Assembly: GCA_034231615.1 (NCBI GenBank)
Contig: CM067311.1
Location: forward strand, 24,580,015-24,644,014
Direction of reading: 5' to 3'
DNA: 64,000 bases
Source: Meghimatium bilineatum
Taxonomy: Eukaryota; Mollusca; Gastropoda; Stylommatophora; Philomycidae
A model generated the notes under the pieces. That model was not told where the DNA came from. It did no database searches and worked only from the letters and a program-made list of their open reading frames with translations. Each line of letters opens with the position of its first letter. The stretch's first letter is position 1. The translations under genes were made by a program, and so were the position numbers. Below, piece by piece: positions 24,690 to 33,620 of the stretch.

Positions 24690-24955
24690 CTTTAAGAATC
24701 TATGCTGTAAAACATCAGAAGAATGCTAGCTAGAGGATATAAAAGAATGAAGTGGCCATATCAAAGGCAAAGAAAGCTGTGTTTTTAACAACAAAGTGGG
24801 ATGACGAGATAGAAGGAATATTTCAAAGAACTTCTAAACTGTTCAAAAATAAAAGCATTACCAGATATAAATCTAGCAGACGAGCGAGCTATGTTAAATG
24901 TGACTGATCAATTGATTACGAGACATAACAAACATGAATTAAAAATAGAGGCCTA
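24690..24955 (+). mobile_element. LINE linker fragment (RTE-like)
   Basis: Around 24820-24910 it reads EYFKELLNCSKIKALPDINLADERAMLNV, the stretch between endonuclease and RT in RTE-like ORFs (compare WREYFKELLN at 26085). Upstream blocks are decayed. Confidence 0.6.
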
Positions 24956-25173
24956 CTGAGATTAATAAACAATTGGTACCAGCGTTACCACCGCTCATCA
25001 ACAACTATTCAGAGAGGATTATGAGCTTAACAATATAAAGAGATATACAGATACTTACATACAACTGTATGCGCCTTGCAACGACAACTACACGGATGAT
25101 AAGAAAGACGAGTTTTTTGACGATCTACAAGAACAAATACAAAAAGTTTTAAAAAAACAGCACGATTTATGTC

Positions 25174-25623
25174 ATGGGAGACTATAATGGCAAAGTAGGT
25201 TCCAACAGACAAAACTACGAACAATATCTTGGCCCCCATGCCGCAAAGAATACTGCAAAGAATGATAACGGACAGAGGGTATTAGATTTGTGCAGCCAAT
25301 ACAACCTATTCATAGCTAACACCTTCTATGAACACAGGGAAACACAAAAGTACACATGGTACAAATGGAACGACATCACAGTTAAAAGTCAGATTGATTA
25401 CATTCTGACAAGGGCGATAGATAGACATAATGTTTTGGATGCGAAAGCAATACCCAATACTATGTGTGGTACTGATCACAAGATAGTAGTGATAACAACA
25501 AGGTCTATCTCATCAAAGATAAACAAAACTACAACTAGAAATGATGGTTTTATCAAAATAATGAATTTAAAGAACGAAGGAGTAAAAGAACAGCCTCCAA
25601 CAGACAGTAGACTCCACATTTAA
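25174..25623 (+). pseudogene. LINE-a endonuclease segment
   Basis: 149 open codons of an APE-type endonuclease. GDYNGKVG holds the conserved Asp and Asn of the active site. YTWYKWNDITVKSQIDYIL carries the substrate-binding and SQIDYI block, and CGTDHKIVV the catalytic Asp-His (normally SDH). The N-terminal catalytic Glu region lies upstream of the truncation point. Frame is lost on both sides, and the 3' part runs into the linker in a different frame. Confidence 0.88.
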
Positions 25624-29517: not shown

Positions 29518-30650
29518 TCGAAAAACATATTCAGCAGCAATGTGATCTATACCACAACTTCATTGACTTTACAAAGGCCTTTGATCGTGTTTGGCATGAT
29601 GGTCTGTGGCACATACTGAGGGAATTTAATTTTGACACCACAATTATAGACATTATTGAAGCTCTGTACGAAAATGCAAATAGTGCTGTCTTGTCACACA
29701 ATACAATTGGAGAGTTCTTCAAAACAACTGTGGGAGTTCGACAGGGATGCATAATGTCCCCAGTACTTTTTAACATATACTTAGAGCACATCATACAAGA
29801 GACATTGCATGACTACAACACGTCTATATCGATCGGAGGTCGCCCTATTTGCAACTTGCGTTTCGCTGATGATATTGATCTTATAGCTGGGTCAGAACAA
29901 TCATTGCAAGAATTAACATCAAAGTTAGAAAAAGTTACCAGCAAGTACGGAATGGAAATCAATTCATATAAGAGCAAAATCTTGGTAAACAGCAGAGACA
30001 CAGAAAACCAGACTAATATCATGATGAATGGACATAAGCTTGAAGAGGTGAAAACCTTCAAATACCTCGGATCCAGTATATGCAGCGATGGTAAATGCAA
30101 AGTAGAACTAAAAATAAGGCTGGAGATGGCTTTAGCGTCCTTGTCAAGGCGAACTGTGATTTGGAAAAGCAACATCAGTGTTGGAGTGAAAATCAAACTG
30201 TATAGGTCGCTGGTGCTTTCCATTGTGTTGTATGGTTGTGAGAGTTGGACACTCACTGCGGACATGGAGAGAAGATTACAGGCTTTCGAGTATAAATGCT
30301 ACAGAAGAATTCTACGAATTTCCTATAGGGAACATAAGACCAATGTGTACGTAAGAAATAAAGTAGAGATGTGTGCAGGTGTCCAGGAGCCATTGCTTTC
30401 AATAGTGAAACGACGAAAACTAGCATGGTTCGGACATGTATGCAGGCACGATTCCTTGTCAAAGACAATACTGCAGGGAACTGTCGAGGGTGGAAGAAGC
30501 AGAGGAGGACAAATAAAGACATGGACAGACAACATCAAGGAATGGACAGGGCTAGATATTTCCACACTCATCCGCATCGCTGAGGATATAATTCGCTGGA
30601 GGACTCTGTGTGCTGAAGCTTCCAATGTGGTACCCCTACGACCCTGAAGG
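29518..30650 (+). pseudogene. RTE ORF, reverse transcriptase palm to C terminus
   Basis: Opens in a new frame with LIEKHIQQQCDLYHNFIDFTKAFDRVWHD (palm A, catalytic Asp). It continues with TTVGVRQGCIMSPVLFNIYLE (B), CNLRFADDIDLIAG (catalytic FADD, about 29856), YGMEINSYKSKI, VKTFKYLGSSICSDG (thumb), LYGCESWTL, KRRKLAWFGHVCRHDSLSKT and RSRGGQIKTWTDNIKEWTGL, ending at a natural stop. About 360 continuous codons. Without the fingers it should not polymerise. Confidence 0.93.
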
Positions 30651-32223
30651 GTTATGGGTTTTATTGATTGATTGAAAGCATATATGAAGAGAGGAGAAGC
30701 AGAACGAAGAGCCAGGGGTAGACCTAGAGTACGCTGGAACGACAAATCAAAGAGACATTACACGAACACCAAATAACATTATCTGAAGCAGCCAGAAAAG
30801 CTAGAACAAGAATATTGAATCTCCCTCGACACCCGTAAAGGGTAAAAGAGGAAAGAAGAAGAAGAAGTTACCACCGCTTTGCTTTTTTCCCAAGTTCTTG
30901 GCTTTTTCGATCAGACCTTGGGTTATTTTCTTAAAAACTTGGCTTTTTTGGGGCAATTTCTTAAAGAAAAATCTTTATTAAATTATCTCTAATAGTTCCA
31001 CAATAAGTCCCGTTGACTGTTTTTGTGTGTTACGTTTTAGTTTTGAGTTACTTTCCCACGTTTATTTTAATTTACTTCGTCGACCCTTCTGGATTCAAAT
31101 AATTGATGTCGTCCTGACAGCTAGATAATAGTGCTATATGTAAAAAATAGTAGTAATTCTCACTCATCACTGACATGTGTATATGAATCGTGCTTTAAAA
31201 ATAATCAAATTTTATGACTGTGTTGTTTATTTACTGAATGTATAGACTATATCTCGTATAATTATTAATGATATAATTTATGGAAGGGAATAAAGAACGT
31301 GGTGGTTCAATTATTGCGACATCATCATTGAGTCCGTGTAAGAGACGTAAAACAACAAAGACATGGTATAAGCAACCATTCTGTAGTGAATGACTCGAAG
31401 ACAAAGAGCTAAAGGAGTGGATACAATCTGATCCTTGCAAACTTTATGTAATGCAAAATGATGTAAATGTAATGCAAACTTTATGTAATGCAAAATGATT
31501 CATTTTGCATTACTATTTGTTCATTAGGTTACTGCGGCACCATCCACTTTGTCGGACACCCTCTGGCCATTTGGTTATTTATATCAAACTTTATGTGTAG
31601 GTTAATGGCACTTCCACATTCACCAGCATGCGTGGGAAGAATATTTTCACAGGTAAATATGGTGAAAACAACACTAACTAATAGATTGCATGTTGTTACA
31701 GTAACAAACCGATTATTGTCAAAGCAAGCCATTTCAAGAAATGATTGTCATCTCGTGGACACCACCTAAAGCTATAATTGCTGATGTTACAGAAGGCCGT
31801 TGTCATCAACGTTATGTAGAAGGAGTGACAAATAGACAGAAACAGTGGAGTTGAGTAATGCCACTCAAAGATGACGATGTGGAGGACTTTGATTCAGTTG
31901 TTGATGTTTAAACTGTTGTAACTGTTGTTCTGAAGTTATTACTTAGCCTACAAGTACAGTGTTTATTTTAGCATATTAGTTGTTCATATACTATAGATAT
32001 ATGTAGACTTATGTATATATATATATATATATATATATATATATATATATATATATATATATATATATATATATATATATATATATATATATATATATAT
32101 ATATATATATATATATATAAGAACTTGGCTTATCTTGGCATTTATTTTGTCCTCCGAACTTGTGACTTTTCAAAATGTTTGGTGGTAACGCTGATTAGTA
32201 TACACCGCGTTCAACACATCTAG

Positions 32224-33620
32224 TGACGAGATTAATAAACAGTTGCTACACAGAGCGTTCAACACATCTAGTGAAGATAAGAACACATCTAGTAAGATTA
32301 GAACACATCTAGTGAAGATTACAACACATCTAGTAAGATTAGAATACATCTAGTGAAGATTAGAACACATCTAGTAAGATTAGAACACATCTAGTGAAGA
32401 TTAGAACACATCTAGTAAGATTAGAACACATCTAGTGAAGATTAGAACACATCTAGTGAAGATTACAACACATCTAGTGAAGATTAGAACACATATAGTG
32501 AAGATTACAACACATCTAGTAAGATTAGAACACATCTAGTGAAGATTACAACACATCTAGTAAGATTACAACACATATAGTGAAGATTAGAACACATCTA
32601 GTGAAGATGAGAACACATCTAGTGAAGAAGAGATTAATAAACAGTTGATACTGTTTAATTTGCATACGTTAGAAATTGCTTAATTGCAAACCTCAAGCAT
32701 TTGTAGAGTTCTAACATACTCGAAACCACAAGACATAATTATATACAGGGATGGCTCAATTAGCAGAAATACAAATAAAAGCAGTTGGGGTTTTATTGTC
32801 TACAGAAAGGTCGTAAAGTTGGTTGAGAAATCTTCATCATACACCAGTCACATAGAGCATAAGGATAGAGACAGAGGGAGTTACAGCAGCACTTAATTGA
32901 TTGATAACTGATACGTCAACACACTCGGTAATATTCACAGACTCTCAAAGAATAATGTACAAGATAAAAAAGTACATGCTGAGAAAAGAATGGTGGGACT
33001 TATTGAATAACTCATTTGTTCAGAGCATTACATGGATACGCTGCAATGGTCATGCTGGGGTCAGAGGAAGCAAGAGAGCAAACTTATTGGCAGGCAATGC
33101 GGCGATAGACGGCACAATGCTGAGAAGAGAAAAACAGATTTGATCAAAGCAGTAATAAATTCTTGTCAAAATGAAGATGATGTCATTAAGGCTGAGAACC
33201 TACACAAACAGAAAATGTAAGAAATGGGAGTATCTAGAGGGACGGGTTGGTAAACAGTTGGTACATATAGTTAAACACAATAATTGATGGTGACTTTAAA
33301 GATTTGCAAAATACAACATTGAACATATCTAGTGAAGATTACTAAACAGTTAGTAAAATACAGCATTCAATACATCTAGTGAAGATAAGATTGATAAACA
33401 GTTGGCCCATACATAATTCAACACATCTAGTGAAGATAATATTAATAAACAGTTGGTACAGACATTATTCAACACATCAAGTGAAGATAAAATTAATAAA
33501 CAGTTGGTACAGACATTATTCAACGAGTGAAGATAATATTAATAAGCAGTTGGTACAGACATTATTCAACACATCTAGTGAAAGTGAAGATGAGATTATT
33601 AATAACAAGCATTAAAATCC
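32224..33620. repeat. Compound minisatellite: 21-bp and 51-bp units
   Basis: Left block 32224-32640: about 20 units of ACACATCTAGTGAAGATTAGA or the 20-bp form lacking one base (GTAAGATT). Right block 33300-33610: longer units made of the same ACACATCTAGTGAAGAT plus AATATTAATAAACAGTTGGTAC and AGACATTATTCA. One 51-bp style unit also starts the left block and lies left of the hAT at 24955-24979. The 21-bp array therefore arose from part of the 51-bp unit. A LINE-e piece sits between the blocks. Confidence 0.93.
32660..33235 (+). mobile_element. LINE-e RNase H fragment inside the minisatellite
   Basis: IIIYRDGSISRNTNKSSWGFIVY (first catalytic Asp region), then after a frame change VIFTDSQRIMYKIK (second Asp), EWWDLLNNSFVQSITWIRCNGHAGVRGSKRANLLAGNAAIDG (the usual last Asp is Asn here) and DDVIKAENLHKQKM. 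It is an I-type RNase H with degraded catalytic residues. 5'-truncated; both borders lie in array sequence. Confidence 0.85.

Follow-up and report, generated by a model that had tools for sequence, protein, structure and literature searches.

Insertions of transposable elements into one another are commonplace, and nests of elements within elements have been described in plant genomes, e.g., in the part of PMC6911290 considered here, where they are built of long terminal repeat (LTR) elements. For the Penelope elements of Adineta vaga, the portion of PMC3846280 drawn upon here describes pseudo-LTRs (pLTRs) in direct and inverted orientation: one end may carry a tail of 31 bp, the inverted copy is 37 bp shorter, target-site duplications (TSDs) measure 8–10 bp or are absent, and palindromes lie at the inverted junction of a head-to-head arrangement, for which a head-to-head self-priming model was proposed. 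The locus described here lies in the gastropod Meghimatium bilineatum, in a window of 64 kb (the whole stretch of DNA analyzed, G000:C14:24580015-24644014, from an assembly of 1.61 Gb in 32 contigs). In it a 51-bp minisatellite contains a non-autonomous hAT element, which contains a 5'-truncated long interspersed nuclear element (LINE), here called LINE-a, which in turn contains both an RTE-type LINE and a foldback element. As in the plant nests elements lie within elements, but here they are hAT, LINE and RTE elements within a minisatellite rather than LTR elements. Such a nest is ordinary; it is of use as a clean and checkable instance of insertion order, and we put the probability that it is real, with nesting and order as read below, at about 0.9.

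The nest had been claimed in an initial annotation of the stretch, and it is confirmed by its ends, its duplications, the joins restored on removal of the inserts, and the empty sites elsewhere in the same genome. Counted over the window on both strands, the 13-bp terminal inverted repeat (TIR) of the hAT, CAGCGTTACCACC, occurs exactly twice, at 24980 (+) and at 32181-32193 (-); the same holds for the 12-bp TSD of LINE-a, GTTACCACCGCT, and for the TSD of the RTE-type LINE, AAAGCATATAT, and all these ends lie where they had been placed (Table 1). The hAT is flanked by 8 bp reading ATTGGTAC on the left and ATTAGTAT on the right. Both of these have an A where the other listed unit-like places of the minisatellite have a G (8/9) or, in the ninth, a weak match, a T; this speaks for their common origin. 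When the hAT is excised, the join restores the 51-bp unit with a score of 117, compared with a maximum of 28 among 2000 random joins. The reading frame of LINE-a likewise continues across the RTE join with one TSD copy kept (SLVYKAYMKRGEAERRARGRPRVRWND), and across the foldback join with one stop (EPEILQH*VDGVVRQAPKWK), frame continuity by itself having a one-in-three chance at each join.

The uninterrupted counterparts come from searches of the same genome, in which the best candidates of longer lists were scored and a subset of these was fetched. With the hAT as query, 40 matches were scored of 331 candidates, the window copy included, and all 19 of the other copies fetched align without interruption from the TIR region across the LINE-a site. 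Seven of them, 1147-1888 bp in length, bear both ends with 8-bp duplications (three perfect, four with one difference); in two more the flanks of a candidate right end do not match, and ten have no right end in the stretch, the right end being taken as the best-matching among up to six candidates. Because other copies thus span the LINE-a site and carry both ends with 8-bp TSDs, the two hAT ends in the window can be assigned to one element type. Hence, neither of the two outcomes that the initial annotation had held to be fatal to its reading, i.e., hAT ends drawn from two different elements or the lack of any genomic copy joining 24995 to 30879, has materialized. The copies of LINE-a without the RTE, for which it had also called, exist: with 40 candidates scored of 2603, the RTE site is uninterrupted in all eight fetched copies (92-94% identity), as is the foldback site in 8/8; the alignment of copy L054 breaks off about 45 bases past the RTE site. 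Misassembly is a general hazard of repeats, and the stack might be seen as an assembly artefact or as a chance adjacency of unrelated fragments. Nothing was found here in support of this, and three independent joins that restore a frame or a repeat unit, together with the uninterrupted sites in other genomic copies, render it extremely improbable.

The layers can be placed in known classes to differing degrees. The hAT family shows a short TIR with 8-bp duplications in several copies, and its 13-bp CAGCG... TIR is of the kind seen in non-autonomous hATs; the window copy differs from hAT elements in being without an intact transposase. It counts against this placement that the putative transposase remnants at 31280-31390 and 31473-31766 have no Pfam match at E 1, the second of them presumably resembling hAT C-termini. 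LINE-a has the anatomy of a non-LTR element, namely a reverse transcriptase (RT) domain (RVT_1, 5.5e-12, on a piece of it), 5' truncation, a TSD and a simple 3' tail, with (GAA)n preceding the right TSD and a start that reads by eye as endonuclease sequence. The domains of the 3.0-kb element fit an RTE-type LINE: like these, it has Exo_endo_phos and RVT_1 on one strand, a short-repeat 3' tail, a length of about 3.0 kb, and RNase H unmatched in the pieces scanned. It differs from them in one in-frame stop (by eye) and in the absence of ~365-380 bp of the RT region, around 29490. Its pieces are 96-98% identical to 39 further copies, scored out of 5634 candidates. In 38 of these, the two parts that are contiguous in the window copy stand 365-380 bp apart, and the 39th was matched in one part only.

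Table 1. Features of the nest and its surroundings (positions within the 64-kb window)
Feature	Position	Strand	Remarks
Left remnant of 51-bp unit	24958..24979	+	unit core matched at 17/18 bases
hAT TSD, left copy ATTGGTAC	24972-24979	+	ends minisatellite remnant
Non-autonomous hAT	24980..32193	+	1330 bp without LINE-a; TIR CAGCGTTACCACC at both ends
LINE-a TSD, left copy GTTACCACCGCT	24984..24995	+	12 bp
LINE-a, 5'-truncated	24996..30866	+	endonuclease remnant, RT, (GAA)n 3' end; holds RTE and foldback
Foldback TSD, left GAGTG	26191..26195	+	perhaps 26189-26195 TGGAGTG
Foldback	26196..26372	.	two head-to-head unit pieces, no tail; unit positions ~41-132 and 42-119
Foldback TSD, right GAGTG	26373..26377	+	perhaps 26371-26377 TAGAGTG
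RTE TSD, left copy AAAGCATATAT	27662..27672	+	11 bp
RTE-type LINE	27673..30674	+	endonuclease and RT, tail TTGATTGATTG; Exo_endo_phos 1.8e-9, RVT_1 5.7e-28
RTE TSD, right copy AAAGCATATAT	30675..30685	+	11 bp
LINE-a TSD, right copy GTTACCACCGCT	30867..30878	+	doubles as hAT end sequence
hAT TSD, right copy ATTAGTAT	32194..32201	+	flank of TIR
Minisatellite right of hAT	32202..32651	+	21-bp part of unit expanded to sub-array 32261-32628
LINE-b fragment, RNase H remnants	~32652..33250	+	RNase_H 6.7e-4 and 0.012 on two pieces, below Pfam cut-off
Minisatellite, 51-bp units	33251..33620	+	interrupted upstream by LINE-b

The order of insertion, with the hAT first, LINE-a second, and the RTE and the foldback thereafter, rests on the nesting. 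It had been proposed that the TSDs give this order; the order stands by virtue of containment, but the dating by TSD mismatches was rejected as uninformative, since 2/8 differences in the hAT duplication versus 0/23 in those of LINE-a and the RTE combined fall short of significance (p = 0.06) and agree with the family divergences. The comparison with family consensus sequences, which had been suggested as a check, succeeds in part. Measured against the majority sequence of the fetched relatives, the divergence of the window copy is 18/436 positions for the hAT (4.1%, 19 relatives), 59/1458 for LINE-a (4.05%, 8 relatives) and 33/1809 for the RTE (1.8%, 29 relatives), values that are biased low because the relatives were chosen for their likeness to the window copies. 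The RTE is clearly younger than the hAT (p = 0.007) and LINE-a (p = 1.7e-4). Weighing against a full concordance of ages with the order as read, the hAT and LINE-a are indistinguishable in divergence (p = 0.89), and thus it is only the nesting that orders these two. The relatives' own distances from consensus, 5.1-7.9% for the hAT (19), 2.5-4.6% for LINE-a (8) and 0.2-2.7% for the RTE (29), would put the hAT oldest, on the same similarity-chosen samples. The reading frame of LINE-a is broken at several places (by eye) as against the single stop and the deletion of the RTE, in keeping with LINE-a being the older.

A course of events may be proposed, in which we infer the enzymes involved. A locus-specific 51-bp minisatellite received the non-autonomous hAT, with an 8-bp duplication, through what would be cut-and-paste transposition; LINE-a then inserted 16 bp inside the left end of the hAT, presumably by target-primed reverse transcription, giving rise to its 12-bp duplication and parting the left TIR from the rest, which presumably immobilized the hAT. 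The RTE-type LINE later entered LINE-a with an 11-bp duplication, and a hairpin-shaped copy of a ~385-bp unit did so too, also after LINE-a and independently of the RTE.

The 51-bp array found no match beyond the locus in one genome search, in which very common words were skipped and only the best candidates scored. The comparison with a minisatellite free of the hAT is therefore confined to the locus itself, where joining the flanks does restore the unit; the wider comparison that had been envisaged found no second array to draw on. The LINE-b fragment looks like a further, separate insertion into this array: its flanks, TAAACAGTTG[A/G]TAC at 32638-32651 and 33251-33264, agree over 14 bp with one difference, and 39 other scored copies are 86-88% identical to it (40 scored of 6130 candidates). 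The hAT (24979/24980) and LINE-b (32651/32652) both follow immediately upon one and the same position of the 51-bp unit (GGTAC/GATAC), whether by chance or through a weak target preference. The expectation that target preferences might be read from this stack has to be given up, as one locus cannot provide them.

The innermost layer departs from the initial annotation, which took it for a foldback element with a 5-bp TSD. Its arms (26203-26274 and 26298-26369) are 93% complementary and GAGTG lies on both sides, a motif found 74 times in the window. The corresponding site in the eight fetched LINE-a copies mostly reads ATAGAGTGGTC, so that the TSD may be 7 bp (TGGAGTG/TAGAGTG, with one difference) and not 5. 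Its relatives prove to be ~385-bp units (37% GC) with variable, mostly longer duplications, one-sided tails, truncated copies and non-inverted forms; the two arms differ from the consensus of 31 unit segments at 10/91 and 5/77 positions. A match of the foldback to MIR2646 (59.6 bits, gathering 245) was put down to the hairpin shape, and over the window Rfam at gathering level and ARAGORN returned nothing.

The family is dispersed over the genome and also forms inverted pairs, tandems (L059, L081) and arrays. At C19:30410097-30446972, 55 scored units extend over 37 kb at a spacing of mostly ~387 bp; several gaps interrupt the series, the widest measuring 10.8 kb from one unit start to the next, and the orientation changes once among the scored units. 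Inverted copies make up 10/16 of the main fetched set and 14/20 with the earlier L059, L083, L084 and L085, all inverted; these 20 belong to 25 places outside the C19 array, the other five of which include tandem or inverted pairs. Another 15 short copies that resemble the whole foldback bear a one-sided tail. Flanking duplications are widespread and variable in length: a score of at least 10 (11-17 bases) is reached at 15/28 loci compared with 1/756 mismatched-flank control pairings, and a score of at least 8 at 19/28 compared with 21/756. These lengths are maximal shared stretches that may include element bases, and the 28 are the scorable ones of 43 loci, with 15 dropped on account of short flanks (13 of L060-L074, L076 and L100). 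In a separate count of L060-L074, a direct repeat of at least 11 bases occurs in 9/15, with L062 and L068 sharing flanking sequence and thus perhaps being copies of one insertion. One could still regard the hairpin as a foldback or miniature inverted-repeat DNA transposon (Mutator/FB/Tetris-like) that makes short duplications of one length, a view to which the near-perfect inverted arms and the short duplication of the window copy would be congenial, as would the tandem arrays, for which the Tetris foldback of Drosophila virilis offers a parallel (PMC4079207, in the part consulted). This is rather improbable on account of the varying duplication lengths, copies such as L090, L092 and L098, which are truncated at one end and not inverted, the one-sided extension at the end near unit position 1, and the variable inner junctions. 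Cut-and-paste transposases as a rule make duplications of fixed length, and neither a fixed length nor consistently inverted ends are seen in this family, 6/16 copies being non-inverted. The ~385-bp repeat probably spreads through RNA.

In the 18 inverted copies that were scored, one end always falls at unit position 1-4; the second lies at 35-45 in 11 and at 29-34 in three (29-45 in 14/18), often at an A/T-rich stretch in unit ~29-45. Such ends might be expected if the units were passengers of an ordinary LINE, akin to short interspersed nuclear elements (SINEs), with the inversions arising from twin priming, and the LINE-like duplication lengths and truncated ends agree with this as well. 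We nevertheless deem it unlikely: no 3' end common to the unit and LINE-a or the RTE is apparent by eye, and the tandem multimers and the pairing of copies with and without a tail are better matched by Penelope pLTRs (PMC3846280, as far as drawn upon here).

The most likely reading of the hairpin, at about even odds, is a Penelope-like origin, in which it would be a pLTR-only retrocopy made by copying two incomplete units head-to-head with an internal join. The family resembles the A. vaga pLTRs, in the same portion of PMC3846280, in its direct and inverted repeats, one-end tail, head-to-head arrangement and shorter inverted repeat, but with units of ~385 bp as opposed to ~193-218 bp. The Penelope anatomy, with an inverted repeat ~37 bp shorter than the direct one and a tail at one end, is thus found in the family, but the window copy is without the tail. 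Several observations weigh on the other side. The window foldback is unlike most relatives examined in that it is tailless and has a duplication of just 5-7 bp, so that its own mechanism has to be deduced from them. The second end falls elsewhere in four of the 18 inverted copies, i.e., at 220 (L081), 338 (L084), 62 (L085) and 93 (L089). Penelope endonucleases have a GIY-YIG domain, and in distinction to Penelope elements no open reading frame for an RT or GIY-YIG was seen attached to the unit. The genome does contain GIY-YIG domains (29 matches among 150 scored of 3067 candidates). When these 29 were set against 65 places of the unit, every one was more than 45 kb away, in a comparison that covers only a small part of both families. 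The hammerhead ribozyme is a defining feature of retrozymes and is reported in Penelope-like elements; Rfam cmscan detected none in five loci of the family at E 1, nor at E 10 in a stretch of L081 that spans about two tandem units. On the minus strand of the consensus CTGAGGA and TTGATGA each occur once, but by eye the remainder of a hammerhead core accompanies neither.

The lack of a hammerhead also separates the family from the metazoan non-LTR retrozymes of PMC7229834, which, in the part considered, carry one of type I. These are otherwise alike in their ~300-bp low-GC units, multimers from dimers to large ones, and TSDs of more than 4 bp; the word 'inverted' is absent from the main text of that paper. 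At less than even odds, the foldback may represent a mobile satellite, in which a unit of ~385 bp, non-coding and lacking a recognizable ribozyme, would retropose as tandem and mostly head-to-head multimers by means of Penelope-type machinery, and would also grow into long arrays. In this one chromosome-scale assembly the family combines long tandem arrays with dispersed, inverted copies whose duplications can be read, which makes both the step from retroelement terminal repeat to satellite and the head-to-head self-priming of Penelope elements, as put forward in the portion of PMC3846280 used here, testable through genome-wide counts of its ends and junctions. A separate observation concerns family copy L076, in which a tRNA-like stretch at ~145-215 (22.4 bits; Rfam gathering 29) is perhaps a tRNA-derived SINE.

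Other repeats in the window bear traces of the same kinds of elements. The 45-bp minisatellite at 9421-9708 adjoins an RTE fragment (9069-9308) and has units that correspond to a portion of the 3' reading frame of the RTE; it is apparently a tandem array born within a LINE. The RTE copy at 51583-51784 (-) is internally deleted: a 59-bp piece (RTE positions 346-404) is joined directly to 150 bp from the 3' end. Upstream of the nest, 22381-23040 (-) is a LINE remnant with RNase H (1.2e-11). Finally, a motif of ~33 bp (about GCAGGAGTTTGAGAATGAACGC.GAAGAAGAAG) occurs at 33909-33942 and at ten other places of the window, on both strands; the bases upstream of it are alike in many copies, which suggests that it belongs to a SINE-like repeat with a (GAA)n end resembling the tail of LINE-a.

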